Part shown: piece by piece, positions 4,645 to 56,665 of the stretch
Layout: each line of letters begins with the position of its first letter
Position numbering within the stretch: the stretch's first letter is position 1
Origin: Alicycliphilus denitrificans K601
Lineage (GTDB): Bacteria > Pseudomonadota > Gammaproteobacteria > Burkholderiales > Burkholderiaceae_C
Reading direction: 5' to 3'
NCBI RefSeq assembly: GCF_000204645.1
Contig: NC_015422.1
Location: 2,249,001 to 2,313,000, forward strand
Length of the DNA stretch: 64,000 nucleotides
Made by a program: the position numbers and the translations under genes
Notes under the pieces: model-generated
The model's database searches: none
Seen by the model: only the letters and a program-made list of their open reading frames with translations
What the model was told of the DNA's origin: nothing

Positions 4645-6261
4645 ATGCAACACGACAAGATCCTCATCCTCGACTTCGGCTCCCAGGTCACACAGCTCAT
4701 CGCGCGGCGCGTGCGCGAGGCCCATGTGTACTGCGAGGTTCATCCGTGCGATGTCAGCAGCGAATGGGTGCGCTCTTTTGCGGCAGATGGCAGGCTCAAG
4801 GGCGTGATTCTCTCGGGCAGCCACGCCAGCGTGTACGAGGTGGACGACAAGGCGCCGGAGGCGGTGTTCGAGCTGGGCGTCCCGGTACTCGGCATCTGCT
4901 ACGGCATGCAGACCATGGCCAACCAGCTCGGCGGCAAAGTCGAGGGCTCGCACACGCGCGAATTCGGCTACGCCGAAGTGCGCGCCCATGGCCATACCGA
5001 ACTGCTCAAGGGCATCGAGGACTTCGCTACGCCCGAGGGCTACGGCATGCTGAAGGTCTGGATGAGCCACGGCGACAAGGTCACCGGGCTGCCGCCGGGG
5101 TTCAAGCTCATGGCATCCACACCGTCCTGCCCCATTGCGGGCATGGCGGACGAGGCACGGCGCTTTTACGCCGTGCAGTTCCACCCCGAGGTCACGCACA
5201 CGGTGCAGGGCCGGGCGCTGCTGGAGCGCTTCGTTCTCGGCATTTGCGCAGCCAGGCCTGATTGGGTCATGAAGGACCATATCGCCGAGGCCGTCGAGGC
5301 CATCCGCGCCCAGGTGGGCGACGAGGAGGTAATCCTGGGCCTGTCCGGCGGCGTGGATTCGAGCGTGGCTGCCGCGCTGATCCACCGTGCCATCGGCGAT
5401 CAGCTGACCTGCGTGTTCGTCGACCACGGTCTGCTACGCCTCAACGAGGGCGACATGGTCATGGACATGTTCGAAGGCAAGCTGCATGCGAAGGTGATTC
5501 GCGTGGATGCGAGCGAGCTGTTCCTCTCCAAGCTCGCGGGCGTCTCCGAACCCGAGCAAAAGCGCAAGATCATCGGCGGCCTGTTCGTGGATGTTTTCAA
5601 GGCCGAGGCCGCCAAGCTCAAGGCTGCAGGAGGCGGCCACAAGGGCGCGACCTTCCTGGCACAGGGCACCATCTATCCGGACGTGATCGAGTCGGGTGGC
5701 GCCAAGAGCAAAAAGGCCGTCACCATCAAGAGCCACCACAACGTCGGCGGCTTGCCTGAGCAACTGGGCTTGAAGCTGCTCGAACCCCTGCGCGACCTGT
5801 TCAAGGACGAGGTGCGCGAACTGGGCGTGGCGCTAGGCCTGCCGCGCGAGATGGTTTATCGCCACCCCTTCCCCGGCCCAGGTCTTGGCGTGCGCATCCT
5901 GGGCGAGGTGAAGAAGGAATACGCCGACCTGCTGCGCCGTGCCGACGCGATCTTCATCGCAGAACTGCGTGCCTGCATCGATCCAGCCAGCGGCAAGAGC
6001 TGGTACGACCTGACCAGCCAGGCCTTCACCGTCTTCCTGCCCGTGAAGAGCGTGGGCGTGATGGGCGACGGCCGCACCTACGACTACGTGGTCGCGCTGC
6101 GCGCCGTGCAGACCTCGGATTTCATGACGGCGGACTGGGCTGAGCTGCCCTACGAGCTGCTGAAGAAGGTCTCTGGGCGCATCATCAACGAGGTGCGTGG
6201 TATCAATCGCGTGACCTATGACGTAAGCAGCAAGCCGCCGGCGACGATCGAGTGGGAGTGA
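4645..6261 (+). CDS. guaA: GMP synthase (glutamine-hydrolysing)
   Basis: 538 residues; converts XMP to GMP using ATP and glutamine. The N-terminal class I amidotransferase has GICYGMQ (nucleophile Cys) and FHPEVTHT (His-Glu of the triad). The synthetase domain begins with the PP-loop [15 protein letters not shown], and the C-terminal dimerisation domain ends PPATIEWE. The start [25 protein letters not shown] is the family start. The last codons and stop (6246-6262) double as the attachment core of the integrated island; the protein end stays intact because the core restores IEWE and the stop. Confidence 0.98.
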
Positions 6262-6262
6262 A
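6246..6262 (+). other. Attachment core in guaA 3' end (left junction)
   Basis: The 17-base sequence gatcgagtgggagtgaa contains the last guaA codons and stop. It recurs exactly at 55506-55522, immediately ahead of an integrase leader. Site-specific islands that use the 3' end of guaA are known, and the integrase leader resemblance on the right side of both copies supports att identity. Strand-exchange position within the core is not determinable here. Confidence 0.8.
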
Positions 6263-6541
6263 TTTACGTCCTTCGAGGACTATCGCCAGCTATCGAGAAT
6301 CCGACGTAACGTGTTGATATTGAAAGAGATACGTCACGGCAGCTATCGGTAGCTATCGCCGGCCAGCAGAAAAAGTTGACGGTAGAGCTGACGGTAAAAA
6401 TCGAAGCCGGATTAAGACACTCTCGTTCACTATTCAGACTTTTACCGTCTTTGACGGTAAAAGCCTTCTCGGGAAAGCTTGTTTCATGGGGCTTTCCGGG
6501 CATCAGCAGGTCTCCAGGTCCCTGACGGTAAAACCTGACGG
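6263..6541 (+). other. Integrase-leader remnant of the left element (no gene)
   Basis: No coding sequence is seen. The stretch resembles 55523-55822, the leader of the right-hand integrase, along its length with many mismatches. Shared blocks include ggactatcgccag, the paired ctatcgg.ggctatcgccggccagca repeats, tttgacggtaaaa and the ggctttccgggcatc.. segment. It should have led into an integrase gene, but the IS21-family copy begins at 6542. Repeated tgacggta motifs (for example near 6375, 6389, 6456, 6522 and 6535) look like arm-type recombinase or excisionase sites, an inference. Confidence 0.65.
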
Positions 6542-6649
6542 TGTTGATTTCCACGCAGAAGTGACCCACTAACCCCCGGGATTTCCATCCAAACCTGACC
6601 CACGTACTAACCCTAACCTGCTGCTTTGCTGAGCAGCAGGAGACCAGGA

Positions 6650-8176
6650 GTGATAGACGTGGCAACACTGAGTGTCATCAGGCGCTGGGCCCTGCGAGAG
6701 CAGCTGTCCATCCGGGAGATAGCCCGCCGCACGGGCCTCTCGCGCAACACCATCCGCAAGTACCTGCGCGTAGGCGAGGCCGAGCCGCACTATGCCAAGC
6801 GGGTCAGTCCATCCAAGCTCGATCCCTTCGCCTTGAAGCTCGCTGGCTGGCTCAAGACGGAAGCTGGCCGATCCCGCAAGCAGCGCCGCACCGTCAAGCA
6901 GATGTACGTGGATCTGCAGGCGCTCGGTTATGGCGGCTCCTACAACCGCGTAGCGGCCTTTGCCCGCCTCTGGCACGAGCAGCGCCTTGTGGCCCAGCAG
7001 ACCACTGGCCGCGGCACCTTCGTTCCCCTGGCCTTCGGTCCGGGTGAGGCCTTCCAGTTCGACTGGAGCGAGGACTGGGCTGTTCTCGCCGGCGTGCGCA
7101 CCAAGCTGCAGGTAGCCCACTTCAAGCTCAGCCACAGCCGAGCGTTCTACCTGCGCGCCTATCCGCTGCAAACGCACGAGATGCTGTTCGATGCCCACAA
7201 CCATGCATTCGCAGTCCTGGGCGGTGTGCCCCGCCGTGGCATCTACGACAACATGCGCACCGCCGTAGACCGGGTGCGCCGTGGCAAGGAGCGCGACGTC
7301 AATGCGCGCTTTGCGGCCATGGTCAGCCACTTCCTGTTCGAGGCCGAGTTCTGCAATCCTGCTTCGGGCTGGGAGAAGGGCCAGGTGGAGAAGAACGTGC
7401 GCGATGCCCGCCATCGCCTGTGGCAGGTAGTGCCGCCATTCCCAAGCCTGCCCGATCTCAATGCATGGCTTGAAGAGCGCTGCGTGGCGCTGTGGCACGA
7501 GATCGAGCACGGCAAGCTGCCGGGCACCGTCGCGGACATCTGGACCGAGGAGAAGAACGACTTGATGCCAATGCCCCGGCCCTTCGATGGCTTTGTGGAG
7601 CACACCAAACGCGTCTCACCCACCTGCCTCGTCCACTTCGAGCGCAACCGCTACAGCGTGCCGGCGCCTTATGCCAATCGGCCGGTGAGCCTGCGGGTCT
7701 ACGCCGATCGCCTGGTGGTCGCCGCCGAAGGCCAGATCGTGTGCGAGCATCAGCGCCTGATCGAGCGTAACCACCATGGTGCGGGACAGACCGTGTACGA
7801 CTGGCGCCACTACCTGGCAGTGCTGCAGCGCAAGCCCGGGGCCTTGCGCAATGGTGCTCCATTCCTGGAACTGCCAGCAGCCTTCAAGCGCCTGCAGGCC
7901 GCCCTCTTGAAGCAGCCAGGCGGCGACCGAGAGATGGTGGAGGTTCTGGCTCTGGTGCTGCACCACGATGAACAAGCTGTGCTCGCTGCAGTGGAGTTGG
8001 CACTGGAGTCAGGGGCTGCCAGCAAGACCCACATCCTGAACGTGCTGCACCGCCTGCTGGACGGTAAGCCCGCCCCAGCACCGGTCACCTCGCCCCAGGC
8101 CCTCAAGCTGTCTGTGGAACCCCAGGCCAACGTGCTGCGCTATGACCAATTGAGGGAGGTGCGCTATGCGTCATGA
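6650..8176 (+). CDS. istA: IS21-family transposase IstA (copy 1)
   Basis: About 508 residues from the GTG at 6650, which follows AGGAG; a TTG further upstream (6626) is the longest in-frame alternative. The N-terminus carries a resolvase-like helix-turn-helix ([21 protein letters not shown]). The DDE core is seen in [12 protein letters not shown] (first Asp), [12 protein letters not shown] (second Asp) and [15 protein letters not shown] (Glu). The C-terminal part includes [15 protein letters not shown], typical of the Mu-type beta-barrel domain. The stop overlaps the istB start by 11 bases, so the two are translationally coupled. Confidence 0.95.
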
Positions 8177-8969
8177 CCCTGCCATCGCTTCCATCGTGAT
8201 CATGCTGCGCGAGCTCAAGATGCACGGCATGGCCCAGGCGGTTGCGGAACTGGCTGAGCAAGGTGCGCCGGCCTTCGACGCAGCGCAGCCCATCCTGTCC
8301 CAACTGCTCAAGGCCGAGACCGCCGAGCGGGAGGTGCGCTCTGTGGCCTACCAACTCAAGGTGGCCAGGTTCCCTGCGTACCGGGACCTGGCTGGGTTTG
8401 ACTTCAGCCACAGCGAGGTGAACGAGGCATTGGTACGCCAGTTGCACCGCTGCGAATTCTTGGAGAACGCCAACAACGTGGTGCTGGTGGGTGGACCGGG
8501 TACGGGCAAGACCCACATCGCCACAGCCCTCGGGGTGCAAGCCATTGAGCACCATCACCGCAGGGTGCGGTTCTTCTCCACGGTGGAGCTGGTCAATGCA
8601 CTGGAAGAGGAGAAGGCCCAGGGCAAGCCGGGGCAGATCGCGCACCGCCTAGCCTATGCCGATCTGGTGATCCTGGATGAACTGGGCTACCTGCCATTCA
8701 GCACGTCAGGAGGAGCCTTGCTGTTCCACCTGCTGTCCAAGCTGTACGAGCGCACGAGCGTCGTGATCACCACCAACCTGAGCTTTAGCGAGTGGGCCAA
8801 TGTGTTCGGAGATGCCAAGATGACCACGGCGCTGCTGGACCGGCTCACGCATCACTGCCATATTCTTGAGACCGGCAATGACAGCTACCGGTTCAAGAAT
8901 AGCTCCGCACAGCAACCACCACAGACCACCAAGAAGGAGAAGGCGACCAAGAACTTATCCACAACGTGA
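8166..8969 (+). CDS. istB: IS21-family helper ATPase IstB (copy 1)
   Basis: 267 residues of the DnaC-like AAA+ family. Walker A is [15 protein letters not shown] and Walker B is [13 protein letters not shown]; a sensor-1-like [12 protein letters not shown] follows. It assembles on DNA and licenses IstA transposition. The start ATGCGTCATGAC overlaps the end of istA. The short Lys-rich tail ([10 protein letters not shown]) runs to the right end of the element. Confidence 0.95.
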
Positions 8970-9042
8970 GCGTGAAGCTCACGAACCAGGGTGGGTCAAG
9001 ATTCGATGGAAATGGTGGGTCAGCTTTGCGTGGAAATCAACA

Positions 9043-9808
9043 GACCAAAGACACCGGGCGGGGTCACCAGGGCGAGCTGAGGCAGCAAGTCATCGCGGAA
9101 GGTGTTGCGGATGCTGTTCGTGCTGATCGGCGTGCGGCCGTTCCAGGAAAACAGGTAGTGGGCGCCCGCGCAGGCGTAGCCTCGTTGCTCGCGTTGGGCT
9201 TGGTAGCCACGCAGCCTGGCCGCCAGCTTGGGGCCAAAGGGCACCAGCCGATCCTTGCCGAACTTGGTGTTGCGGATCTCCAGCACTTCTCGCACCAGGT
9301 CCACGTCACCCCATTGGAGGCGAGCGACTTCACCCACCCGCAGGCCAAGACCCGCGAGCAGTGCAAGGATCATCTCGTAGCTGGCACCCCGCAGTTGAGC
9401 GCGTGAGTTGTCTGGCAACGCTCTGGCCGAGATCAGCAAGCGCCGGATGGTGTCGTCTGAAAACAGGAAGGGAAGCCGGCGAGCTGTCTGAGGTTGAGCC
9501 CTGGCCGTCAACGGGGAGCCCACCAGAACCTGCTGACCGACCATCCACTCGAACAGCCGTCGGACATCTCCGAGCAGGTTGTTGTAGCTGCGAGGGTTGG
9601 TGCGATGGCGGGAATCCAGAAATGCCTGCAAGCACTCTCCATCGATCGCCTCGATGCATTCGACACCGCGGTCATCGAGAAATCGGTCGAGCAGTCGCAA
9701 TTGACGATCCTCGCAGGCGAACTTGCATCCCATGGCGCGCTTGGCGCGCAGGTACTGTTCGATGTGAGGAGCCAAGGCGCTGTGAAAGCCGTTCCAGAGG
9801 GCGGTCAT
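9043..9808 (-). pseudogene. Second tandem tyrosine recombinase, cut by IS21
   Basis: Starts MTALWNGFHSALAPHIEQYL at 9808. About 255 residues remain before the sequence enters the IS21 copy. The N-terminal SAM-like core-binding domain and the first catalytic Arg (GLGLRVGEVARL, R157) are present. The HxxR box and the Tyr nucleophile are missing, so it cannot be active. Its ATG overlaps the stop of the upstream recombinase (ATGA), the coupling seen in recombinase-in-trio (RIT) elements; a third recombinase would have followed and is absent. Confidence 0.85.
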
Positions 9809-11073
9809 AGCACGTCCTCCCCGTGGCCAATGACCATCTCTCGCAGTTTGTGCACCGCCACCTTGCCATAGACCAGTGTGGATGCAGGATGGCGATGGCC
9901 AACGTAGTCGCCAATGACCTTGAATGGCAAGTCGGCTTCCACCAAGTGCTGAACGCAGGAGTGACGCAAGGTGTGGGAACCGGCGCGTGCTACCTGAATG
10001 CCGATGCTGCGCAGATGGCCAGCCACCATGGATGAAACCGTCCAGTGGTTCATCGGGGTATAGGGCGAGCGGACCGTGAGAAAGATTCGGCGGTCGTCTA
10101 TATCGGTTCTTCGGACATGCAAATAGGCGATGATCGCTTCGCCCACCGCCGCCGAAAGCGGATAACGGGTCGAATGGCCGCCTTTGCGCATGGGAATGCC
10201 GATCTGCCCATGGGCCCAATCCAGATCGTCCAGACACAAGGCTACGATCTCCCTGGCACGCAATCCGTAGCTGGTCAGCAACGTCAGGATGGCATAGTCG
10301 CGTTTACCCAGGTCGCTGCGGCGGTCGATGCTGGCCAGCAATCGCTCGACGTCCGCCCAGCCGATGGCGCGCGGAATGGATGCCTGGCGGTAGACACGGC
10401 CGCGCGGCACACTGCGAACCAGATCGTTGGCGATGATGCCTTCACGGTGCAGATAGCGAAGGAAGACACGCAAGGCCTCCGCCGTATTGAGCATGCCGGA
10501 CTTGTGCAACGTCTTCGCCCGGTCATTGATGAACTCGGTGATGCAGGCTGGAGTCAGCTTGTCCAGGGAAATACCTGCTTGTGCCAAATATGAATCGAAT
10601 GGACGCAACGTGAAGGTGTAGTTGTGTATCGAGGTCTGGCGCAGACCCTTCTCCTTGAGAAGGAAGGGAAAGAAGCCAGGAACGCTGGTGGAGAACGGCA
10701 TGGCCGGCCGGTTGCTTGGCCGCGTGTAGCCAGGCACGGCCAGGCTGAGCATCCGTTCCACTGGGACACGGCTTTGTGCAACGACGGCGGCCCGATCTTG
10801 CGCGCTCTTGCACCAGCGTCCGTGCCCGGCCTGCCAGTGCTCCACGAAGGCATCCACATGGTCGGGTAGATCGTCCAGACAGGTGGCACCTCGGCCAATC
10901 ACGAAGTCGTTGAAGTGCCCGAGAGCGCGAACATGCTGCCGAACCGTGGAGTTGCTCGTGTGCAACTCGTCCAGAAACTGTGCATAGCGCTCAATCTGCG
11001 GCCCCAGCCACTGGGCCTTGATGCGGTCGATCGCCTTGAGCGACCGGAAATGACGTTCCAACATGACAATCAC
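9805..11073 (-). CDS. Tyrosine recombinase, first gene of a RIT-like set
   Basis: 422 residues with a complete tyrosine-recombinase active site: R272 in SYGLRAREIV, K297 in MRKGGHS, H367-x-x-R370 in GSHTLRHS, H393/H395 in GHRHPAS and the nucleophile Y402 in LVYGKV. The N-terminal 230 residues hold two helical core-binding segments. It overlaps the next recombinase by ATGA. The tandem, overlapping, same-strand layout fits the first gene of a RIT element rather than a lone XerC/D. It is intact but probably non-functional without its partners. The gene lies inside the 3' part of a radC gene. Confidence 0.88.
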   Translation of the reverse strand: MIVMLERHFRSLKAIDRIKAQWLGPQIERYAQFLDELHTSNSTVRQHVRALGHFNDFVIGRGATCLDDLPDHVDAFVEHWQAGHGRWCKSAQDRAAVVAQSRVPVERMLSLAVPGYTRPSNRPAMPFSTSVPGFFPFLLKEKGLRQTSIHNYTFTLRPFDSYLAQAGISLDKLTPACITEFINDRAKTLHKSGMLNTAEALRVFLRYLHREGIIANDLVRSVPRGRVYRQASIPRAIGWADVERLLASIDRRSDLGKRDYAILTLLTSYGLRAREIVALCLDDLDWAHGQIGIPMRKGGHSTRYPLSAAVGEAIIAYLHVRRTDIDDRRIFLTVRSPYTPMNHWTVSSMVAGHLRSIGIQVARAGSHTLRHSCVQHLVEADLPFKVIGDYVGHRHPASTLVYGKVAVHKLREMVIGHGEDVL

Positions 11074-11184: not shown

Positions 11185-11206
11185 AGAAAACAGGGCACAA
11201 AATTCG

Positions 11207-11365
11207 CACAACCATCCGAGCGGCAATCCAGAGCCTAGCAGGGCCGACGAGGTACTGACCCAGCGGCTCAAGGAGGCGCTGGCGCTGGTGGATGTTCGCA
11301 CGTTGGATCACATCATCGTGGCGGGCAGCAGCATCACATCGTTTGCCGAACGCGGCCTGGTTTGA
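11207..11365 (+). pseudogene. radC: RadC family protein, C-terminal fragment
   Basis: Reads [16 protein letters not shown], then [20 protein letters not shown] and [16 protein letters not shown], then a stop. HNHPSG with the downstream Asp is the JAMM metalloprotease-like motif of RadC/YkfG proteins, which are regular genes of this kind of integrative element. Everything upstream of the motif is replaced by the recombinase element, so the gene is broken at about 11205. Confidence 0.85.
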
Positions 11366-11367
11366 CC

Positions 11368-11390
11368 GAGGGGGCTTCGGCTCCCTTTTT
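11368..11390 (+). terminator. Terminator after radC fragment
   Basis: A GC hairpin (aggggg-c-ttcg-g-ctccct type) followed by a run of T (ccctttttg) lies 3 bases after the radC stop. The remaining bases up to 11647 contain no gene that I can support; they are GC-rich leader ahead of the DUF2958 gene. Confidence 0.6.
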
Positions 11391-11647
11391 GCTGCGCCCG
11401 GTGGTGCAACTCCGGCCCGCGCGGGCCTGCGCGTGTTGCGCACTTGCCAGGAAGCCGGGGTGCGTTGAGGTGCGAGGGAGGCGGTCTTGCTGTTCCTTTC
11501 ATCGTGCCACGGCGTTCTCGCCGTCAAGGGCGGCGCGTGCTTGCACGCTTGCGGCCTGGCGGCCGTCGCTGACCCCTGACTGCTTGCGCTGCGCCGTGCC
11601 CCGGAAGGGGCGGGCAATTCCGCCCGGCAACCTTTCGGGAGTTCACC

Positions 11648-11998
11648 ATGAACAACGCACTCATCACCGACGAGCAGCGCATCGTGCTGCTGGCCAATGG
11701 CCGCGAATCCTTGGACAACCCGGACTTCGATCCGGCGCCCGTAATCAAGCTGTTCACGCCGGACGCCGGCGCGACCTGGCTGCTGACCGAGATTGATCCC
11801 GATGACCACGACCATGCCTTCGGTCTTTGCGACCTGGGCCTGGGGATGCCGGAAATCGGCTGGGTCAGCCTGGGCGAGCTGGCGACTGTGCGCGGCGGGC
11901 TGGGCCTGCCGATCGAGCGCGACCTGTCGTTTCGCGCCGAGAAGCGGTTGAGCGCCTATGCGCGCGATGCGCGGCTGGCCGGGCGGGTTGACGTCTGA
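11648..11998 (+). CDS. DUF2958 protein (copy 1)
   Basis: 116 residues beginning MNNALITDEQRIVLLANGRESL, preceded by GGGAG. The core PVIKLFTPDAGATWLLTEIDPDD, then HAFGLCDLGLGMPEIGWVSLGELATV, is the DUF2958 signature. These small proteins are standard cargo of conjugative plasmids and ICEs of Proteobacteria; their role is unknown. A second, divergent member lies at 20710-21057. No membrane segments or metal motifs are visible. Confidence 0.88.
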   Translation: MNNALITDEQRIVLLANGRESLDNPDFDPAPVIKLFTPDAGATWLLTEIDPDDHDHAFGLCDLGLGMPEIGWVSLGELATVRGGLGLPIERDLSFRAEKRLSAYARDARLAGRVDV

Positions 11999-12746
11999 CC
12001 CGGCCTTGGGGCGTCGCGGGACGCCCTTCGCATCGCGCCCACGCGGCGCGATGCCTGCGCGCCTTCGGCTTGTTCTCCAGGGGAAAGCCCTGCGGGCTAT
12101 CCCCGCCGCGCAGGCTTGGCGCCCCTGAGCACCGCCGACCCGGCTACGCCGGATCGGTCAGACCGCATTTGCAGCAGATCCACAATGCCTTGGGTGTGCT
12201 CGCCCTGATCTTGCTGTTTCTTCGGCATTGAAGGCTGGGCGTCCCCGGCCCCCTGGGAGATGGCCGGTCGCGCTGTCGTGCTGCGCATCGAGCCGCCTGC
12301 GGGGTTTCGCCCCTGACGGGCTTCCATCGTTCCCTCGCTCCGCTCGGCTGACGCCTTCGGCCCGGCTTCCAGCTTCGGGCCTGCGCGCTTCGCTTGCCGT
12401 GCGGTCGGCGTGTGGGATGGCCATTGCCATGTCCAGCCGTCTCCCCTGAATTCATCACCTTGTCCGCGACTGTAGCCCGCGCCCGTGTGCCGTCAAGGCG
12501 CGCAGGGCCGTGTCCTCGGCTGCGCCTGCGGGCCGCACCAACCCTGCGCTTGTCTCCTTGACGGCGCCCGTTCGCGCGCTCCTGACCGTCGCGGGCGATG
12601 AACTCAGGAAAGACGGTGAGAACCAGGCCAAGAGGGCCAACCGGGTTCCTCGTGCCGACCGCACCGAACAGCCGAAAGGCTGGGCTCCGAATCTAGGAAT
12701 CCGGTGTGCGGTTTTCTTCAACAGCCTTTTTGTTCAGGAGAAAGAC
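11999..12746 (+). other. Gene-free 748-base interval
   Basis: No coding sequence is supported; the short open frames here on both strands have no family resemblance and no start signals. It contains hairpin repeat copy A (12099-12157) and a long GC-rich leader in front of the DUF932 gene. The leader length is unusual and may hold a regulatory RNA or promoter region, which cannot be shown from sequence alone. Confidence 0.6.
12099..12157 (+). repeat. Intergenic hairpin repeat, copy A
   Basis: Shares atccccgccgcgcaggcttg and the following ggcgc with copies C and D, followed by a hairpin CCGacCCGGC-tac-GCCGGatCGG at 12135-12157. Two stacked stems (CCG/CGG and CCGGC/GCCGG) are separated by 2-base bulges. 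It lies about 100 bases after the stop of the first DUF2958 gene. Confidence 0.75.
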
Positions 12747-13577
12747 ATGCAAATCGCATCCCGTTTCGCTTCCCGCTCCCCGTCGCTGCGCAGCGACTAC
12801 CCGCTGTCCGATGACCAGATTCGCAGGGTGGCCCCGTCCATTTTCGCGGACGCCCCGCATGAGAGCCGTTCCGAACGATACAGCTACATCCCCACCGCCG
12901 CCGTTCTGACCGAGCTTCGCAAAGAAGGCTTCCAGCCCTTCATGGTGACGCAGACCCGTGTGCGCGATGAAGGCAAGCGCGAGCACACGAAACACATGCT
13001 GCGCCTGCGCCACGCCAGCCAGATCAACGGCGAGGAGGCTAACGAAATCGTGCTGCTGAACTCGCACGACGGCACCAGCAGCTATCAGATGCTGGCCGGA
13101 ATGTTCCGCTTCGTTTGCAGCAATGGCCTTGTCTGCGGCGACACCGTGGCCGATGTGCGCGTGCCCCACAAAGGCGATGTTTCCGGGCATGTCATCGAAG
13201 GCGCTTACGAAGTCTTGCGCGGCTTCAACCGGGTGAAGGAATCCCGCGATGCCATGCGCGCGATCACGCTGGATGAAAGCGAAGCCGAAGTGTTCGCCCG
13301 TTCCGCGCTGGCCCTCAAGTACGACCCCACCGACAACAAGCCCGCGCCCATCACCGAATCGCAAATCCTGATGCCGCGCCGGTTCGACGACCGCCGCCCC
13401 GACCTGTGGAGTGTGTTCAACCGCACGCAGGAGAACTTGACCAAGGGCGGATTGCATGGCCGCAGCGCCAACGGACGCCGCCAGCAAACCCGACCTGTGC
13501 AGGGCATTGATTCCGATGTGCGCCTGAACCGCGCCCTCTGGATGCTGGCCGATGGCCTGCGCCAGTTGAAAGCCTGA
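12747..13577 (+). CDS. DUF932 protein
   Basis: 276 residues from the ATG at 12747, preceded by CAGGAGAAAGAC. It matches the plasmid-borne DUF932 family: SERYSYIPTAAVLTELRKEG near residue 35, FMVTQTRVRDEGKREHTKHM, and EIVLLNSHDGTSSYQMLAGM, then FRFVCSNGLVCGD, the most conserved block. It is a usual neighbour of ParB-like and DUF2958 genes on broad-host-range elements. The molecular role is unknown. ParB-like gene follows after 80 bases on the same strand. Confidence 0.9.
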   Translation: MQIASRFASRSPSLRSDYPLSDDQIRRVAPSIFADAPHESRSERYSYIPTAAVLTELRKEGFQPFMVTQTRVRDEGKREHTKHMLRLRHASQINGEEANEIVLLNSHDGTSSYQMLAGMFRFVCSNGLVCGDTVADVRVPHKGDVSGHVIEGAYEVLRGFNRVKESRDAMRAITLDESEAEVFARSALALKYDPTDNKPAPITESQILMPRRFDDRRPDLWSVFNRTQENLTKGGLHGRSANGRRQQTRPVQGIDSDVRLNRALWMLADGLRQLKA

Positions 13578-13657
13578 ATCCCCACGCGGCGGGGGCAGGC
13601 AGCAGCCCTTGCCGCTTTCTTCTCTGCTGCATTCCCTAACCGCAAGGAGTTATCACC

Positions 13658-15724: not shown

Positions 15725-15786
15725 CCCGTGCAGAAGGCGAGCGCCCCGGCTTCGACCGGGGCGCTTCGCTGGAAGGAGAAGCCCCC

Positions 15787-15996: not shown

Positions 15997-16006
15997 CCGC
16001 GTTCAG

Positions 16007-16079: not shown

Positions 16080-16200
16080 TGTTCAAGGCCAACAACCAAA
16101 TCAGAACGCCGCCGCTTTCGTAGAGGTTCAAGCTGCGGCGTCGAAAGCGCGAGCCTCCTGCCCACGCAGCGCGTCAGTCAGATTGCAGCCGTGGCGTCCA

Positions 16201-16703: not shown

Positions 16704-16713
16704 GAAAGCTCCT

Positions 16714-17123: not shown

Positions 17124-17134
17124 GGGGGCGACCA

Positions 17135-45432: not shown

Positions 45433-45451
45433 GAGCAGCGCACATCCGACC

Positions 45452-45910
45452 ATGGCTTGCATCCGAAGTATCGTCACGCACTGGGGCCGCCGGATCGTCG
45501 GCGGCTTGGTCGCGGCCCTGCTGTTCTCGCAGATGGCGCTGGCGATGTATGCCTGCCCCACGCCGGATGCGGACGCGCACGCGGCATCGATGCAGATGGC
45601 GGGCATGGCCATGGACGAAGCCGCCGGCATGTCCGCCATGCCGGGTTGTCATGCCATGCCAGGGACGATGGACGACGAGTCCCCGCAGTTGTGCCGTGTC
45701 CATTGCAGCGGTGACGCCAAGCCCGCACCGTCTCCGCAAGGACTGGACGTCCCATCTACTGCGGCGGCCCATGCGGTCTGGATTGCCTACCTGCTTCCCG
45801 GGGTGTTCGACCCGCAGTCCTCGACCGGCGCCAGGGCTGACCCAGCGTGGCTCGACCACCGAACGGGTTCTCTTCCCCTCTATCTCACTTTCCAAGTCCT
45901 GCGCAATTGA
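45452..45910 (+). CDS. Exported Met/Cys/His-rich protein (CopL-like)
   Basis: 152 residues. One N-terminal hydrophobic segment (IVGGLVAALLFSQMALAMYA), then a Met-rich run (MQMAGMAMDEAAGMSAMPGC, HAMPGTM) and a Cys-His pair pattern SPQLCRVHCSGD. This resembles CopL/DUF2946-type proteins next to copper operons, which bind Cu and may regulate. It lies 19 bases after the small membrane gene and before cusC. The family name is tentative. Confidence 0.65.
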   Translation: MACIRSIVTHWGRRIVGGLVAALLFSQMALAMYACPTPDADAHAASMQMAGMAMDEAAGMSAMPGCHAMPGTMDDESPQLCRVHCSGDAKPAPSPQGLDVPSTAAAHAVWIAYLLPGVFDPQSSTGARADPAWLDHRTGSLPLYLTFQVLRN

Positions 45911-45985
45911 CACCCCAGGTCGTGCCCGCCGTGCATTGACACGGCAGCACACGTGACTTCGTGGCTATCAATTTCGAGGACCATC

Positions 45986-47302: not shown

Positions 47303-47316
47303 CGGAGACCAACACC

Positions 47317-48831
47317 ATGCATACCTCTTTGAAGAAATCCGTCGCGGGCCTGACTCTGATCGCCCTGGGCGTGGCCGCGGGCTGGGGCTTGTCCCAATGG
47401 CGTGCCGGCACCACGCATGCCGCGGATGGCGCGGATTCCCACGCCGCAGCGACCACCGAGCGCAAGGTGCTGTACTGGTACGACCCCATGTCGCCGACGC
47501 AGAAGTTCGACAAGGCCGGCAAGTCCCCCTTCATGGACATGGACCTGGTGCCCAAGTACGCGGACGAGGACGATAAGGACGGCAAGGGTCTGAGCGTCTC
47601 CTCCCAGACCGTGCAGGCGCTGGGCCTGCGCACGGCCGAGGTGGTGCGGCGCGCCATCGCCGCCGACGTGGACGTGGTGGGCACGGTACTGCTCAACGAC
47701 CGCGATGTGAGCATCGTGCAGGCCCGCTCCGCGGGATTCGTGGAGCGGGTCTATGCGCGGGCGCCGGGCGACGTGATCGCCGCCGGCGCGCCGCTGGCGG
47801 ACCTGCTGCTGCCCGAATGGGTGGCGGCGCAGCGCGAATTCCTGGCCGTGCGCGGACTCAGGGACGAGTCGCTGACCATGGCGGCCCGGCAAAGGCTGCT
47901 GCTGCTGGGCATGCCACAGGCCCTGGTGGTCCAGGTGGAGCGCACGGGCGAACCCAGGGGCATCTATACCGTGACCACGCCCCGGGGTGGCCTGTTGGCC
48001 GAACTCATGGTACGCCAGGGCATGACCGTTTCCGCGGGCGCAAGCCTGGCGCGCGTGAATGGCCTGGCCACCGTCTGGATCGAAGCCGCCGTACCCGAGG
48101 CGCAAAGCGGCCCGCTGCAACTGGGTCATGAGGCCCAGGTGCGCCTGGCGGCGTTTCCCGGCGAAGTCCTGAAGGCGCGCATCGTGAGCATCCTGCCGCA
48201 GGCCAACAGCGACACCCGCACGGTGCGTGTCCGGTTGGAGCTGGGCAATCCCGGCCAGCGCCTGAAGGCCGGCATGTCCGGCCAGATCACGCTCAAGGGC
48301 CGCGAGCAGCCCGCACTGCTGGTTCCCAGCGAGGCCGTCATCCGCACCGGCAGGCGCGCCCTGGCCTATGTGGTCCATGGCCCGGGTAAGTTCCACCCCG
48401 TGGACGTGCAGCTGGGTGCAGAGATCGGTGACCAACTCGTGGTGCAAGGCGGGCTGGAGGCGGGGCAGCAAGTGGTGGCTTCGGCGCAGTTCCTGATCGA
48501 CTCGGAGGCCAGCCTGCGCGGGGTGCTGCCTGCACAGCCGAGCGCCTCCACACCAGTACAGGGACACGGCGAGCATGGCGTCTCCGCACCCCCGGCCGCG
48601 GCGGCCAACGCCTTCACGGTGCGCGGCGTGATAGAGGAGGTTTCCGCCACCGAGCTGACGCTGGCCCACGACGCCGTGCCGGCCCTCAAGTGGCCGGCCA
48701 TGACCATGGGCTTCAGGCTGGCCGATCCGAAACTGGCTGTGGGCCTGGCACCCAAGCAGGCCGTGCGCTTCACCTTCGCCAAGCAGGGCGAGGACTACGT
48801 GATCACCGCCATCGAAAGGGCCAAGCCATGA
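47317..48831 (+). CDS. cusB: RND periplasmic adaptor with C-terminal CusF domain
   Basis: 504 residues. Anchor [17 protein letters not shown]; an N-terminal heavy-metal-binding box [20 protein letters not shown], then [12 protein letters not shown] (Met ligands); then barrel-sandwich hybrid, beta-barrel and hairpin regions of the membrane fusion family. The last 75 residues repeat a CusF fold with [20 protein letters not shown] (His, Trp, Met, Met). It links CusA to CusC, and the fused chaperone would pass Cu(I) in cis. Its stop overlaps the cusA start. Confidence 0.94.
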
Positions 48832-51800
48832 TCGCCAAGCTGATCCGCTGGTCGGTGGCGAACCGCTTTCTGGTGCTGCTGGCTACCGCCATGCTCGCGG
48901 CCTGGGGCATGTGGGGCGTGCGCAGCACGCCCGTGGACGCCCTGCCGGACCTGTCCGACGTGCAGGTCATCATCCGCACCAGCTACCCCGGCCAGGCGCC
49001 GCAGATCGTCGAGAACCAGGTCACCTATCCATTGGCCACCACCATGCTGTCGGTGCCGGGAGCCAAGACGGTGCGCGGTTTCTCGTTCTTCGGGGACTCA
49101 TTCGTCTATGTGCTGTTCGAGGACGGCACCGACCTGTACTGGGCGCGCTCGCGCGTGCTCGAGTACCTGAACCAGGTTCAGGGACGCCTGCCGGCCACGG
49201 CCAAGCCGGCCCTGGGGCCCGATGCCACGGGGGTGGGCTGGATCTTCCAGTACGCGTTGCTGGACCGCACGGGCAAGAACGATCTGGCGCAGCTGCGCGC
49301 GCTGCAGGACTGGTTCCTGAAGTTCGAGCTCAAGAGCCTGCCGAACGTGGCGGAGGTGGCCTCGGTGGGCGGCATGGTCCGGCAGTACCAGGTCGTGCTC
49401 GATCCGATCAGGCTGGCATCCCATGGGCTCAGCCAAGGGCAGGTGCGTGATGCCCTGGTGAACGCCAACCAGGAAACCGGCGGCTCCGTGCTGGAGCTGT
49501 CGGGCGCCGAATACATGGTGCGCGCCAGCGGCTACCTGAAAAGCCTGGACGATTTCCGCGCTGTGCCGCTGGTGGCGCGTGGCGGCGTGCCGATACGCCT
49601 GGGCGACGTGGCCACGCTGCAGGTCGGGCCGGAAATGCGCCGCGGCATCGCCGAGCTCGATGGCGAGGGCGAGGTCGCTGGGGGCGTGGTCATCCTGCGC
49701 TCGGGCAAGAACGCCCAGGAAACGATCGCTGCCGTCAAGGCCAAGTTGGCGCAATTGCAGGCCAGCCTGCCCCAGGGGGTGGAGATCGTCACCACCTACG
49801 ACCGCAGCGCGCTGATCGAGCGCGCCATCCGCAACCTCACGACCAAGCTGGGCGAGGAGTTCCTGGTCGTGGCCCTGGTCTGCGCGCTATTCCTGTGGCA
49901 TCTGCGCTCGGCGCTGGTGGCCATCATTTCCCTGCCGCTGGGCGTGATGACGGCCTTCCTCGTCATGCGCTACCAGGGCATCAACGCCAACATCATGTCG
50001 CTGGGCGGCATTGCCATCGCCGTGGGTGCGATGGTGGATGCGGCCGTGGTCATGATAGAAAACGCGCACAAGAAGCTGGAGGCTTGGCAGCACGCGCATC
50101 CGGACAAGCGGCTGCAGGGCAAGGAGCGCTGGGAGGTCATCACGCACGCCGCCCAGGAAGTCGGCCCAGCGCTGTTCTTCTCGCTGCTCATCATCACGCT
50201 GTCGTTCATTCCCGTGTTCACCCTCGAAGCCCAGGAGGGCCGCCTGTTCGGGCCGCTGGCGTTCACCAAGACCTACGCCATGGCGGCGGCGGCGGGCCTG
50301 TCGGTGACGCTGATCCCGGTGCTCATGGGCTACTGGATTCGCGGTCGTATTCCGGATGAGCAGAAGAACCCCATCACCCGCATGCTGATCGCGGTGTACC
50401 GGCCCGTCCTGGAATGGGTGCTGCGCCGGCCCAGGGCCACGCTGCTGATCGCGGTGTTGGCGCTGGCGACCACGGCCTGGCCGCTGGCCCGGCTAGGCGG
50501 CGAATTCCTACCCCGGCTCGACGAGGGCGACCTGCTCTACATGCCCTCGGCCCTGCCGGGGCTGTCGGCGCAGCGGGCCACGGAGCTGCTGCAGCTCAGC
50601 AACCGCATGATCAAGACCGTGCCCGAGGTCGAACGCGTGTTCGGCAAGGCCGGGCGCGCGGAAACGGCCACCGACCCGGCGCCGCTGGAGATGTTCGAGA
50701 CCACGGTGAAGCTCAAGCCCCGGGAACAATGGCGTGCCGGCATGACGCCCGAGAAGCTGGTCGAGGAACTGGACCACGCGGTGAAGATCCCGGGCCTGTC
50801 CAACATCTGGATTCCGCCCATCCGTAACCGCATCGACATGCTGGCCACCGGCATTAAGAGCCCGATCGGCGTCAAGGTGACGGGTAACGACCTGCATGTG
50901 ATCGACCGCATCGCGGCCGAAGTGGAACAGGTCGCCAAGAATGTTCCAGGCGTGACTTCGTCCCTGGCGGAGCGGCTGACCGGCGGTCGCTATGTGGACG
51001 TGCAGATCGACCGAGTGGCGGCGGGGCGCTATGGGCTGAACGTGGCCGATGTCCAGGCCGTCGTAGCAGGCGCCATCGGTGGGGAAACCGTCTCGGAAAC
51101 CGTAGAGGGCCTGGCGCGCTTCCCGATCAATCTGCGCTATCCGCGCGAATGGCGGGATTCGCCGCAGCGTTTGGCCCAACTGCCCATCTCCACCCCCATG
51201 GGGCAGCAGATCACGCTGGGCACGGTCGCGCACATCGCCATCACCGATGGCCCGCCCATGCTCAAGAGCGAGAACGCCCGCCCTTCCGGCTGGGTGTACG
51301 TGGATGTGCGCGGGCGCGATCTGGCCTCGGTGGCCAACGAGCTTCGCGATGCGATCGGCCGTCAGGTCAAGCTGGAGCCGGGAGTGAGCATTGCGTACTC
51401 GGGACAGTTCGAGTACATGGAGCGGGCCAATGCACGCCTGAAGGTCGTGGTGCCGGCCACCTTGTTGATCATCTTCGTCCTGCTGTACCTGACCTTTGGG
51501 CGCGTCGATGAGGCCGGCTTGATCATGGCCACCTTGCCGTTCGCCCTCACGGGGGGCATTTGGTTCCTGTACCTGATGAACTACAACCTCTCCATCGCCA
51601 CGGGCGTCGGCTTCATCGCCCTGGCGGGCGTTGCAGCAGAGTTCGGCGTGGTCATGCTCATCTATTTGAAGCACGCTTTGGATGAGCGTTGCCCCGACGG
51701 CCGACGGCCAACGCAGGAAGAACTGCTGGATGCGATCCGGGAAGGCGCCGTGCTGCGCGTGCGGCCCAAGGCGATGACTGTAGCGGTCATCCTGGCAGGC

Positions 51801-51947
51801 CTGGTGCCGATCGTCTGGGGCAGTGGCACGGGTTCGGAGGTCATGAGCCGTATTGCGGCGCCGATGCTGGGGGGGATGGTGACTGCGCCGTTGCTGTCGC
51901 TGTTCGTGATTCCTGCGGCTTTCGTCTTGATGCGCAGGCCGCGCTAG
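48828..51947 (+). CDS. cusA: Copper/silver RND efflux pump CusA
   Basis: 1039 residues, 12 membrane spans, HME-RND class. Recognisable segments: [58 protein letters not shown] (TM4 charged motif) and [20 protein letters not shown]. The three Met of CusA that carry Cu(I) through the periplasmic cleft can be seen in [26 protein letters not shown] and [14 protein letters not shown]. This assigns monovalent Cu/Ag rather than Zn/Co/Cd. Uses the proton gradient. Third gene of the cusCBA unit. Confidence 0.95.
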
Positions 51948-51972
51948 CTTGGAATACCAGCCGGGTTGACTC

Positions 51973-52517
51973 ATGGAACTACGCCACCTTCGCTACTTTA
52001 TCGCAGTCGCAGAGGAACTTCACTTTGCTCGCGCAGCCGAGAAATTGCATATCGAGCAATCGCCGTTGTCGCGCGCGATCAAAGAGCTGGAAGAAGAACT
52101 GGGCGTGATGCTGTTCGCCCGCACCACGCGCAGCACCCGGCTGACTCGCGCCGGTAAGTTGTTCCTGGAGCATGTGCAGCGTGTCTTCACGGCTTTGGAG
52201 CAGGCGCGCGACAGTGTGCAAGCCGCAGCCAACGGGTTCGACGGTCAGTTGCGTATCGCCTTGTCCGACGGCATCACTCCCTCACGTCTTCCGGCCTTGC
52301 TCGCGCGCAGCCGCGAAGAAGACCCAGAAGTTGAAGTTCGGCTGTTCGAGGTTCCGCTGGCCCAGCAGATCAAGGGGCTGCATGACGATCTGTACGACGC
52401 CGGATTCTCGATGGCCGAGGACGCGGGCGATGGCATCCTTGTAGAACCAGCCTGGGACGATCAGCTGATGGTGGCGGTGCCGGCACGCCACCCCGTATTG
52501 GCCTTCAAACGCATTCC
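51973..52517 (+). pseudogene. LysR-family regulator, cut by IS21 copy 2
   Basis: About 181 residues remain. The N-terminal helix-turn-helix is complete (MELRHLRYFIAVAEELHFAR, HIEQSPLSRAIKELEEELGV) and the effector domain begins (DGQLRIALSDGITPSRLPAL) but stops at AFKRIP where the IS starts. It begins 25 bases after cusA, on the same strand. It probably came from another locus or was the last gene of the copper island. It is unlikely to be active because most of the second effector subdomain is missing. Confidence 0.88.
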
Positions 52518-52590
52518 TGTTGATTTCCACGCAAAGCTGACCCACCATTTCCATCGAATCTTGACCCACCCTGGTTCGTGAGCTTCACGC

Positions 52591-53394
52591 TCACGTTGTG
52601 GATAAGTTCTTGGTCGCCTTCTCCTTCTTGGTGGTCTGTGGTGGTTGCTGTGCGGAGCTATTCTTGAACCGGTAGCTGTCATTGCCGGTCTCAAGAATAT
52701 GGCAGTGATGCGTGAGCCGGTCCAGCAGCGCCGTGGTCATCTTGGCATCTCCGAACACATTGGCCCACTCGCTAAAGCTCAGGTTGGTGGTGATCACGAC
52801 GCTCGTGCGCTCGTACAGCTTGGACAGCAGGTGGAACAGCAAGGCTCCTCCTGACGTGCTGAATGGCAGGTAGCCCAGTTCATCCAGGATCACCAGATCG
52901 GCATAGGCTAGGCGGTGCGCGATCTGCCCCGGCTTGCCCTGGGCCTTCTCCTCTTCCAGTGCATTGACCAGCTCCACCGTGGAGAAGAACCGCACCCTGC
53001 GGTGATGGTGCTCAATGGCTTGCACCCCGAGGGCTGTGGCGATGTGGGTCTTGCCCGTACCCGGTCCACCCACCAGCACCACGTTGTTGGCGTTCTCCAA
53101 GAATTCGCAGCGGTGCAACTGGCGTACCAATGCCTCGTTCACCTCGCTGTGGCTGAAGTCAAACCCAGCCAGGTCCCGGTACGCAGGGAACCTGGCCACC
53201 TTGAGTTGGTAGGCCACAGAGCGCACCTCCCGCTCGGCGGTCTCGGCCTTGAGCAGTTGGGACAGGATGGGCTGCGCTGCGTCGAAGGCCGGCGCACCTT
53301 GCTCAGCCAGTTCCGCAACCGCCTGGGCCATGCCGTGCATCTTGAGCTCGCGCAGCATGATCACGATGGAAGCGATGGCAGGGTCATGACGCAT
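52591..53394 (-). CDS. istB: IS21-family helper ATPase IstB (copy 2)
   Basis: 267 residues, same sequence as the copy 1 protein, with Walker [16 protein letters not shown] and Walker [14 protein letters not shown]. It overlaps istA by 11 bases on the minus strand. Confidence 0.95.
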
Positions 53395-54910
53395 AGCGCA
53401 CCTCCCTCAATTGGTCATAGCGCAGCACGTTGGCCTGGGGTTCCACAGACAGCTTGAGGGCCTGGGGCGAGGTGACCGGTGCTGGGGCGGGCTTACCGTC
53501 CAGCAGGCGGTGCAGCACGTTCAGGATGTGGGTCTTGCTGGCAGCCCCTGACTCCAGTGCCAACTCCACTGCAGCGAGCACAGCTTGTTCATCGTGGTGC
53601 AGCACCAGAGCCAGAACCTCCACCATCTCTCGGTCGCCGCCTGGCTGCTTCAAGAGGGCGGCCTGCAGGCGCTTGAAGGCTGCTGGCAGTTCCAGGAATG
53701 GAGCACCATTGCGCAAGGCCCCGGGCTTGCGCTGCAGCACTGCCAGGTAGTGGCGCCAGTCGTACACGGTCTGTCCCGCACCATGGTGGTTACGCTCGAT
53801 CAGGCGCTGATGCTCGCACACGATCTGGCCTTCGGCGGCGACCACCAGGCGATCGGCGTAGACCCGCAGGCTCACCGGCCGATTGGCATAAGGCGCCGGC
53901 ACGCTGTAGCGGTTGCGCTCGAAGTGGACGAGGCAGGTGGGTGAGACGCGTTTGGTGTGCTCCACAAAGCCATCGAAGGGCCGGGGCATTGGCATCAAGT
54001 CGTTCTTCTCCTCGGTCCAGATGTCCGCGACGGTGCCCGGCAGCTTGCCGTGCTCGATCTCGTGCCACAGCGCCACGCAGCGCTCTTCAAGCCATGCATT
54101 GAGATCGGGCAGGCTTGGGAATGGCGGCACTACCTGCCACAGGCGATGGCGGGCATCGCGCACGTTCTTCTCCACCTGGCCCTTCTCCCAGCCCGAAGCA
54201 GGATTGCAGAACTCGGCCTCGAACAGGAAGTGGCTGACCATGGCCGCAAAGCGCGCATTGACGTCGCGCTCCTTGCCACGGCGCACCCGGTCTACGGCGG
54301 TGCGCATGTTGTCGTAGATGCCACGGCGGGGCACACCGCCCAGGACTGCGAATGCATGGTTGTGGGCATCGAACAGCATCTCGTGCGTTTGCAGCGGATA
54401 GGCGCGCAGGTAGAACGCTCGGCTGTGGCTGAGCTTGAAGTGGGCTACCTGCAGCTTGGTGCGCACGCCGGCGAGAACAGCCCAGTCCTCGCTCCAGTCG
54501 AACTGGAAGGCCTCACCCGGACCGAAGGCCAGGGGAACGAAGGTGCCGCGGCCAGTGGTCTGCTGGGCCACAAGGCGCTGCTCGTGCCAGAGGCGGGCAA
54601 AGGCCGCTACGCGGTTGTAGGAGCCGCCATAACCGAGCGCCTGCAGATCCACGTACATCTGCTTGACGGTGCGGCGCTGCTTGCGGGATCGGCCAGCTTC
54701 CGTCTTGAGCCAGCCAGCGAGCTTCAAGGCGAAGGGATCGAGCTTGGATGGACTGACCCGCTTGGCATAGTGCGGCTCGGCCTCGCCTACGCGCAGGTAC
54801 TTGCGGATGGTGTTGCGCGAGAGGCCCGTGCGGCGGGCTATCTCCCGGATGGACAGCTGCTCTCGCAGGGCCCAGCGCCTGATGACACTCAGTGTTGCCA
54901 CGTCTATCAC
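53384..54910 (-). CDS. istA: IS21-family transposase IstA (copy 2)
   Basis: About 508 residues, from the GTG at 54910, same sequence as copy 1. HTH at the N-terminus and DDE residues in [18 protein letters not shown] and [10 protein letters not shown] are intact, so this copy should be able to transpose. Confidence 0.95.
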
Positions 54911-55018
54911 TCCTGGTCTCCTGCTGCTCAGCAAAGCAGCAGGTTAGGGTTAGTACGTGGGTCAGGTTTGGATGGAAATCCCGGGGGTTAGTGGGTCACT
55001 TCTGCGTGGAAATCAACA

Positions 55019-55365
55019 AGCCGATCCATGAAGTGCTGTTCACGACGCTGCGGGACATCCGGCACGACTACGAGCACAACTTCCAAGGCATGACGACCGA
55101 GCCGGTGCCGCTTGATGCGCTGCTCGCCGCGCGAGAACGCATGGTGCGCGAAATCCAGCAGGGTTTGGATAGCGATGAGCGGCGCTTCCTGCTGTCGCTG
55201 GCCGTTGGCACGCCGGAGTGGTCATTGCTGGACATCGCGCACCTCGAACACCTGCCGGGCATCCGCTGGAAGCTGCACAACCTGGCGCGGTTGCGGAAGA
55301 CCGATGCGAAGAAGTTTGCCGAGCAGGCCGACTTGCTCGCCACGCGACTGGCTGCGGTATCCTGA
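55019..55365 (+). pseudogene. AbiEii/AbiGii-type toxin, C-terminal fragment
   Basis: About 115 residues in frame from the IS end: KPIHEVLFTTLRDIRHDYEH and on to GTPEWSLLDIAHLEHLPGIR, then WKLHNLARLRKTDAKKFAEQ and a stop. This is the C-terminal part of the nucleotidyltransferase AbiEii/AbiGii toxin family. The catalytic N-terminal half (GSxxxxD) is lost to the IS21 side. The antitoxin partner is not seen. The fragment should be inactive. Confidence 0.8.
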
Positions 55366-55822
55366 GCGCTGATTGATGATGAGCCGATGCCGCGTAAACC
55401 CGCGCCAGCAAAGGACCTGTTTTTCTGACGGTAAAAGCGACGGTAACGGCCTATGTCGATCAAAGCAAATCCCTTTAACCACGCGGACTTGCGTGAGCTG
55501 TTGATGATCGAGTGGGAGTGAAATCAGGTCCTTCGGGGACTATCGCCAGTTATCGAAAAATCGCCGTAAGTAGTTGATTTATAAGAATTTTCTTCTCGGT
55601 GGCTATCGGTGGCTATCGCCGGCCAGCAAAAACGGTTGTCGGTAGAACTGGCGGTAAGCGTCGAAGGCTTGATTAAGACCCTCCCGTTTACTATTGAGAC
55701 CAAATCGGTCTTTGACGGTAAAACGCTCCCCTGGAAAGCTTATTTCATGCGGCTTTCCGGGCATCGACGGGTCTCCTGGCCCCTGACGGTAAAAGCCGTC
55801 GCGAACAGGAGCAAAAACCTCG
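55366..55822 (+). other. Right end of left element, second attachment core and integrase leader
   Basis: No long gene is seen. A short frame at 55453-55521 (MSIKANPFNHADLRELLMIE, then WE and stop) ends in the att core and so in the same IEWE codons as guaA. The core is followed by the integrase leader, with repeats of tgacggtaa and ctatcg like those after guaA. The integrase start at 55823 ends this stretch. Confidence 0.65.
55506..55522 (+). other. Second attachment core (internal att)
   Basis: gatcgagtgggagtgaa, identical to 6246-6262 in guaA. It separates two elements: to its left, the end of the 49-kb element; to its right, an integrase leader and integrase. A further copy expected at the far right end is absent, because the right element is cut short before gltA. 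Confidence 0.8.
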
Positions 55823-56665
55823 ATGTTGACCGACACAGCACTGCGCAATCTGAAGCCTAAGTCGTTGACTTATAAGGTTTCTGACCGGGATGGGATGTAC
55901 GTGACGGTATCGCCCGCCGGTACCATCACCTTCCGCTACGATTACCGTCTCCACGGGCGTCGCGAGACCCTGACCATTGGCCGCTATGGCGCTCTGGGCA
56001 TTTCGCTGGCGCTGGCCCGTGAAAAGCTGCTCGACGCCAAGAAGGCCGTCATGGCCGGCCGCTCCCCCGCGCTGGAGAAACAGCGCGAAAAGCGCCGGCT
56101 GACTGCGGCCAAGAATTTCGGCGACCTGGCCCTCAAATGGCTGGCGGACGCCAAGATGGCCGACAGCACGCGTGCGATGCGCAAGCACGTCGTTGATCGC
56201 GACATCCTGCCGGTGTTCCAGAACCGGCTGCTCAACGAAATCACCGCAGATGACCTGCGGGCCTTGTGCAACAGGGTGAAGGCGCGAGGGGCACCTGCGA
56301 CGGCGGTGCATGTCCGCGACATCGTGAAGCAGATCTATGCCTTCGCCATCCTGCATGGCGAGAAGGTGGACAACCCGGCCAACGATGTGGCTGCGGCTTC
56401 GATCGCGACCTTTGTCCCGAAAGACCGGGCGCTTTCGCCGACCGAGATCCGGCTGGCATTCCATCAACTGGAGTCCATCGCGACCTATCCGACGATCCGC
56501 CTGGCGCTGCGCATGGTCTTGCTGACCCTGGTGCGCAAGAGCGAACTGATCGAGGCCACCTGGAGCGAGATCGACTTCGAGAATGCCACCTGGACGATTC
56601 CGAAGCAGCGCATGAAGGGGCGCAACCCGCACGTGGTCTATCTGTCGCGGCAGGCCCTGGACATG
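55823..56665 (+). pseudogene. P4-type integrase for the guaA site, 3' truncated
   Basis: About 281 residues with integrase similarity, against roughly 400 for the family. The N-terminal DUF4102 arm-binding domain (MLTDTALRNLKPKSLTYKVS, DRDGMYVTVSPAGTITFRYD), the core-binding domain, R238 in LTLVRKSELIEATW and K265 in RMKGRNPHVVYLSRQAL are present. HxxR and the Tyr nucleophile are missing. After about residue 281 the frame continues through the gltA terminator into gltA antisense, which is not integrase. It cannot recombine. Confidence 0.9.

Follow-up and report, generated by a model that had tools for sequence, protein, structure and literature searches.

What stands behind guaA in Alicycliphilus denitrificans K601, one genomic island or two, and can what stands there still move? 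The window analysed here, i.e. the whole 64-kb stretch at positions 2,249,001-2,313,000 of the 4,995,263-bp contig NC_015422.1 (genome 5,070,751 bp), had been described in a first-pass annotation as carrying a tandem array of two related elements integrated at the end of guaA. Our comparisons, in which other genomes and loci are cited by G and L numbers, lead to the same reading: with a probability of roughly 0.92, guaA is followed by a tandem of two islands of the GIsul2/P4-integrase type that target this gene, the first having lost its integrase and the second being cut at a rearrangement joint. The two integrase leaders, the clades they fall into, the right ends of loci L051 and L086, and the gene order in G012 (another genus of the same family) agree with this reading. 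The left end and the inner junction consist of the following.

4528..6261, plus strand: guaA (GMP synthase), host gene with the integration site at its 3′ end (Pfam GMP_synt_C 3e-42, GATase 7e-37)
6246..6262, plus strand: attL (left attachment site), the 17-bp core at the guaA end, containing GAGTGGGA; exact copy at 55506-55522
6263..6541, plus strand: leader 1, the left end of element 1, with four GACGGTAA sites (6390, 6442, 6453, 6524); 95% identical to the G016 (L181) leader, which has an integrase homologue behind it
55399..55505, plus strand: right end of element 1; GACGGTAA occurs twice (55427, 55439); 82% identical to L051 and 79% to L086
55506..55522, plus strand: attLR, the inner core common to element 1 (right) and element 2 (left); same junction type in G012 and G125
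55523..55822, plus strand: leader 2, the left end of element 2; 88-89% identical to L025 and G018, in a clade apart from leader 1
55823..56665, plus strand: the first 281 codons of integrase 2, without the C-terminal HDLRR and YNKAEY motifs of its relatives; 59% amino-acid identity (167/281) to the NZ_CP033109 integrase

The core recurs as first claimed: the 17-bp GATCGAGTGGGAGTGAA has exactly two copies in the window, at 6246-6262 and 55506-55522, and none on the other strand; no third copy was found in the window, and element 2, cut at 56665-56721, is without a far-end core repeat. Both cores are followed by an integrase leader, and with the core included the leaders share 230 of 289 positions (80%, 1 gap, E 1e-71 in a two-sequence comparison). 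This is far above the control, in which leader 1 was compared with the rest of the window (leader 1, IS21 copy A and leader 2 masked) and gave a best match of 19 bp at E 0.17, and the first-pass annotation was right to call the leaders related. The 8-mer GACGGTAA occurs four times in leader 1, twice in leader 2 and twice in the tail of element 1, and is absent from 9044-52516; the other three of its 11 occurrences in the window lie one in each IS21 copy and one in integrase 2. We regard it as a putative arm-type site for integrase binding.

A tree of 84 leaders, drawn from the best 80 of 560 loci confirmed with an integrase fragment and from family genomes, places leader 1 with G012/G016 (support 100/100) and leader 2 with L025/G018 (100/97); since the leaders fall into separate supported clades, they point to two elements and not to a duplicated end. 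In these best 80 of 560 loci the integrase stands directly behind guaA in 68, a strict test failed in 9, and the contig ends in 3; two of the nine failures (L057, L070) have guaA just upstream with an altered leader. Loci L042 and L043 have in common 500 bp before the integrase core that are not guaA, which we read as the right end of another element. The 107 bp before the inner core of K601 match stretches of L051 and L086 that lie ~6 kb downstream of their guaA integrases and run into the core, there GAGTGGG followed by G or C, with DNA beyond that is unlike the leaders. Of the two refuting outcomes named in the first-pass annotation, neither occurred: the leaders align far better than the control, and L051 and L086, which are single elements, carry other DNA where K601 has leader 2.

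A tandem array without a working guaA-type integrase in either element is strongly supported. Element 1 spans 6246 to 55522, with a left end, a backbone, cargo and a right end of its own; the cargo is flanked by two copies of an insertion sequence (IS).

6542..9042, plus strand: IS21-family copy A, with istA 6626-8176 and istB 8166-8969; NF033546 and NF038214 above cut-off, terminal repeats TGTTGATTTC
52518..55018, minus strand: IS21-family copy B, inverted and 100% identical to copy A (self-BLAST, ends)

IstA, IstB and the terminal repeats are all present in this 2501-bp element, whose copies A and B align over 2502 bases and which has 8 full copies in the genome. Leader 1 halts at the IS21 terminal repeat at 6542, ~30 bp before the integrase start codon that is kept by L181, the 95% relative. 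A genome search with a complete integrase relative returned the known fragment (93%) and 12 matches at 24-36% identity, and the next best genome match to a guaA-type integrase is 33% identical. Copy B has a cut LysR gene on one side and a cut AbiEii-like gene on the other, and ~14.6 kb lie between the matching points in G012. Compared with the relatives, the IS21 copies thus stand where integrase 1 and the LysR-to-AbiEii-like segment should be, and they probably caused these deletions. The earlier statement that IS21 had removed integrase 1 therefore holds as to the loss and as to the IS21 in its place, with causation as our inference; the copy at the left end had been recognized, and the identical inverted copy at 52518-55018 had been missed.

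We considered an inversion between the two IS21 copies and found it unsupported: the backbone has the same orientation as in G012, in G125 and in 16 of the 18 guaA loci with a listed match, and swapping the flanks yields no target-site duplication. A net inversion is not needed to account for the locus, and orientation is not fixed in the guaA-island family. At a guaA locus of another genus (L163/L224, G009), DNA resembling an IS21-type terminus begins ~8 bp inside the leader and is followed by 162 bp at 80% identity to the K601 IS21; this may be another guaA island with IS21 at its left end.

Element 2 is reduced to leader 2 and the start of its integrase. Residues 1-281 of integrase 2 are 94% identical to L017/L018, and the homologues in L018 and G012 have 418 amino acids; the missing HDLRR and YNKAEY motifs are ones that we take to be catalytic. 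The integrase of NZ_CP033109, a 148,955-bp plasmid of Acinetobacter baumannii ATCC 17978 that we take to be pAB3, is 59% identical to the 281 residues left. Four relatives were compared at the end of integrase 2, and gap-free homology to them stops at 56664. In L017, one of these, another ~22 bp can be aligned beyond a 16-bp gap, reaching 56702, and in L025 a gapped piece extends to 56685. The earlier end point, i.e. a second element of leader plus 281 codons, was thus right to within ~40 bp. The open frame of integrase 2 continues for 59 codons past codon 281, and the C-terminal half was not found elsewhere in the genome.

The right border is where our reading departs from the first-pass annotation, according to which the chromosome resumes at gltA.

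56665..56721: stretch with the rearrangement joint; integrase homology is gap-free to 56664 with uncertain gapped pieces to 56702, and a same-genus match to the gltA region begins at 56722 at the earliest
56814..58163, minus strand: gltA (name from the first-pass annotation), not the native guaA neighbour, as judged by gene distances in other genomes

The distance between guaA and gltA is 50.5 kb in K601 as against 0.29-1.43 Mb in 17 of 17 other genomes that have both genes on one contig (G002 and 16 of the 59 others in a 60-genome family sample that includes K601 itself, with G003 among the 16 and 43 not judgeable); the two complete same-genus genomes have 0.90 Mb (G002) and 1.43 Mb (G003). 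This is not the ancestral site, and the uninterrupted guaA-gltA junction that had been proposed as a check occurs in none of the 17 comparable genomes. Downstream of gltA, the same-genus genomes G003 and G006 carry genes for ABC transporters and a zinc dehydrogenase, and G002 has ~4.7 kb of other DNA and then the same dehydrogenase gene; in K601 this usual downstream dehydrogenase is found at 2,659.6 kb, at a distance of 354 kb from gltA, and no match of that locus to the window is listed. DNA that lies ~13-19 kb downstream of guaA in G002 is also found behind the guaA island of G265, and in K601 at 2.49 and 2.97 Mb. By these comparisons integrase 2 ends at the joint of a larger chromosomal rearrangement, located within 56665-56721; element 2 stops there at about codon 281 of its integrase, so its attR (right attachment site) and the native guaA flank are not here. 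Two readings of this border were tried and rejected. The gene behind guaA in G002, which we take to be RidA-like, does not serve as the native flank, K601 having only 49-50% relatives of it; and one inversion behind the gltA joint is not supported, given the G002/G265 flank homologues at 2.49 and 2.97 Mb and the dehydrogenase at 2.66 Mb.

The search for guaA islands in related genomes that the first-pass annotation proposed did find further arrays, in the same order in G012 and also in G125 and L037. G012 has guaA, leader 1 at 94-95%, a 418-codon frame of integrase 1 and a colinear backbone, followed by 1135 bp at 92% identity to K601 55020-56154. This segment comprises the tail, the attLR site and leader 2 together with ~110 codons of integrase 2, and the shorter second stub is closed by a third core, 685 bp beyond the second. 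G125 has an array with a complete integrase 1 frame and a second leader broken off after ~206 bp, and in L037 (Burkholderia sp. SRS-46) a right end runs into a second core, behind which a decayed second leader follows (75% over 178 columns). A probe across attLR (55399-55700) gave some match in 46 of 398 family genomes, counts being lower bounds since at most two candidates were scored per genome. The right end was present in at least 30 genomes, and at least six run past the core into a leader (G000, G012, G125, G356, G321, G080), the junction being covered fully or nearly in three (G000, G012, G125). A leader-derived stub of ~40 bp to 1.1 kb thus follows the core in 6 of 30 genomes with a right end, and in L037 outside the sample; a complete second integrase was not found in the locus DNA compared for any of these seven stub carriers.

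That another genus carries the same order raises the possibility that the composite (element 1, attLR, element 2 or its stub, and attR) was already assembled when it arrived in K601 as one unit, and decayed there. Identity between K601 and G012 is 95% in leader 1, 94% in the tail and 92% in the integrase 2 fragment, versus 84.5% in guaA, and three cores with one integrase would permit transfer of the whole by attL x attR recombination, a circle of the kind seen for GIsul2 (PMC9376610). For leader 2, however, identity is no more than 88% and the copies of K601 and G012 belong to different clades, with the second leader of G125 in a third, which favours repeated accretion, weak evidence as trees of 300-bp leaders are; we consider arrival as one unit unlikely, though worth keeping in view. 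Far less probable is a single island with a duplicate of its left end added at the right end, such that there never was a second element: this would account for similar leaders at both ends, but near-identical leaders would then be expected, and instead they are 80% identical in separate supported clades, with 281 integrase codons behind leader 2 and a right end of the L051/L086 kind before it. We give equally little credence to an assembly error in which the identical 2.5-kb IS21 repeats (8 full copies in the genome), found on both sides of the cargo, joined unrelated pieces, since the outer joints (guaA-leader 1 and tail-attLR-leader 2-integrase 2) are independent of the IS copies and the backbone between the copies is that of a guaA island.

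Returning to two islands in tandem, each would have been inserted by its own tyrosine integrase, through recombination of its attP (the attachment site of the incoming element) with the guaA core or with the core of a resident, giving the order core-element-core-element; the chromosomal rearrangement brought gltA beside the integrase 2 stub. Element 1 would now be a passive passenger, resembling a cis-mobilizable element (CIME). It keeps both cores, so excision in trans is conceivable: a related integrase of an incoming guaA island, recombining 6246 with 55506, might release a 49,260-bp circle. The first-pass description of the island as fixed in place is borne out as to the missing cognate integrase, but element 1 keeps both cores and the evidence decides neither for nor against fixation. 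It is also conceivable, if improbable, that left-end stubs of displaced elements are kept because they are useful, i.e. that there is selection for stubs: a stub would supply a second set of repeat sites at the right att site of the newcomer, and the hybrid attLR may resist excision and so stabilise it. The GIsul2 result given next would fit such a benefit.

Several observations weigh against parts of this account. Polymerase chain reaction (PCR) on GIsul2 detected attL x attR and attLR x attR circles and not attL x attLR (PMC9376610), and the circle required in K601 is of this last kind. A target-site duplication is absent at 7 of 7 full IS21 copies read (L003-L009), the eighth (L010) being unreadable, and the deletions beside the copies therefore rest on the relatives; either many copies have recombined or the IS makes deletions. 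The backbone is opposite relative to the integrase in L042, L083 and G018, and orientation alone thus does not exclude a flip between the IS21 copies. An empty guaA site was not seen among the genomes compared, which include no array-free strain of the same species, and either element may have arrived first. The second leaders of K601 and G012 are only 88% identical and are not sisters in the tree, so the common order may be parallel. Among 8 post-island flanks compared, clear agreement is limited to G012-G194 and G265-G002-G006; the flanks behind the islands of six other genomes differ, which leaves the native guaA flank uncertain. Finally, the rearrangement could not be reduced to a single inversion, and the scattered positions of the flank and the dehydrogenase in K601 mean that several events are needed.

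Between its ends, element 1 contains the following.

9808..11073, minus strand: XerD-like tyrosine recombinase of another family (Phage_integrase 4e-25; XerD model 1e-37, below cut-off)
11203..29442, plus strand: backbone with DUF2958, DUF932, ParB, DUF736, RPA-type replication initiator, ParA, DUF2840 and DUF3363 relaxase (Pfam)
within 11203..29442: nested MerR/MerT and rve transposase (Pfam)
29637..52516: copper cargo with multicopper oxidases, CusS-type kinase and response regulator, CopB, P-type ATPase, outer-membrane/CusB/RND efflux genes, and a LysR gene cut at the IS (Pfam)
55019..55365, plus strand: C-terminal remainder of an AbiEii-like toxin gene truncated by IS21 copy B; 40% identical to the C-terminal part of the L018 AbiEii-domain protein

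The backbone is colinear and on the same strand in G012 (~85%) and G125 (~82%). The 665-codon gene of the DUF3363 relaxase is still open, and the RlxS model scores 653 bits, below its cut-off of 850. The frame of the XerD-like recombinase looks complete and lies between IS21 copy A and the backbone; the stretch that holds it (9044-11202) has no DNA match listed in the guaA relatives compared and no counterpart in G012. The AbiEii-like piece of K601 itself has no match in Pfam or NCBIfam; its open frame is longer in G012, where the AbiEi- and AbiEii-like frames were recognized by eye only. Related repeats of ~110-135 bp, 76-82% identical, occur in the element 1 backbone at 12033-12161, 17613-17723, 18948-19167 and 20051-20182. 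Among plasmids, backbone and cargo share parts with many records, none of which spans 80% of either query, and leader 1 has a single weak match; the tail with integrase 2 matches 83 records, of which 81 fall between 60 and 80% identity and two between 80 and 90%; those listed, 15 in number, are 65-71% identical over about half of the query.

Three further loci were noted. In G194 (C1:3038915-3039614) left-end and right-end matches lie ~0.6 kb apart, the island being shrunk almost to its two ends. In L096 (Luteimonas sp. XNQY3, 4448 and 7204) a complete guaA is present, and the integrase is preceded by a further, partial copy of the guaA 3′ end with its own core; the element seems to carry a guaA end. 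In L042 (Alcaligenaceae bacterium CAII-56, 6396) the core is followed by GACGGGCACTGGC, which belongs to the published CR2 end; a guaA-type integrase core lies 3.3 kb further on, and the locus reads as a CR2-like unit adjoining a guaA-type island.

Arrays of this kind have precedents. The motif GAGTGGGA is the published core of GIsul2, described as a guaA island with attL, attLR and attR, and pAB3 of A. baumannii ATCC 17978 is named there as a carrier (PMC9376610). K601 resembles it in the guaA 3′ end, the core, the inner att site and a related integrase (59% amino-acid identity over 281 residues), and element 1 ends in a direct repeat of the core. Beside the left core, element 1 has no integrase of this family, and element 2 has 281 codons of one. 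In contrast to GIsul2, where the inner site joins the island to a CR2-sul2 unit (PMC9376610), the K601 site joins two islands, the array is without a working integrase, and its cargo consists of copper and mercury genes. ICERspD18B of Rheinheimera (PMC7775301) likewise has the guaA 3′ end, the GAGTGGGA core, a relaxase and replication/partition genes, all found in K601 too, but unlike the K601 array it is an intact, transferable, single element.

Accretion of CIMEs was reportedly described by Pavlovic in 2004, as a review cites. That review (PMC5704250) describes how decayed and new elements stack at a shared att site as CIME accretion tandems, to which K601 is similar in its site-specific stacking, in a decayed element beside another and in the att sites kept. 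Element 1 has both att sites and has lost its integration genes, with the other-family recombinase at 9808-11073 present; unlike a strict CIME it retains a relaxase gene, so its transfer genes are not all lost, and unlike the CIME tandems K601 has lost its distal att site at the chromosomal rearrangement. We found no published account of the K601 guaA island in the literature searched, and the available part of the main text of the K601 genome paper (PMC3692508) mentions neither guaA nor copper.

The array is of a known kind; the corrected right border and the counterpart in G012 are the new points. Together with G012, G125 and L037, which look like less decayed stages, K601 illustrates how islands at guaA stack up, are left without integrases and end as passengers. 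There is also a caution: the gene beyond an island need not be its native flank, and the logic of left gene, island, right gene would give the wrong empty site here.

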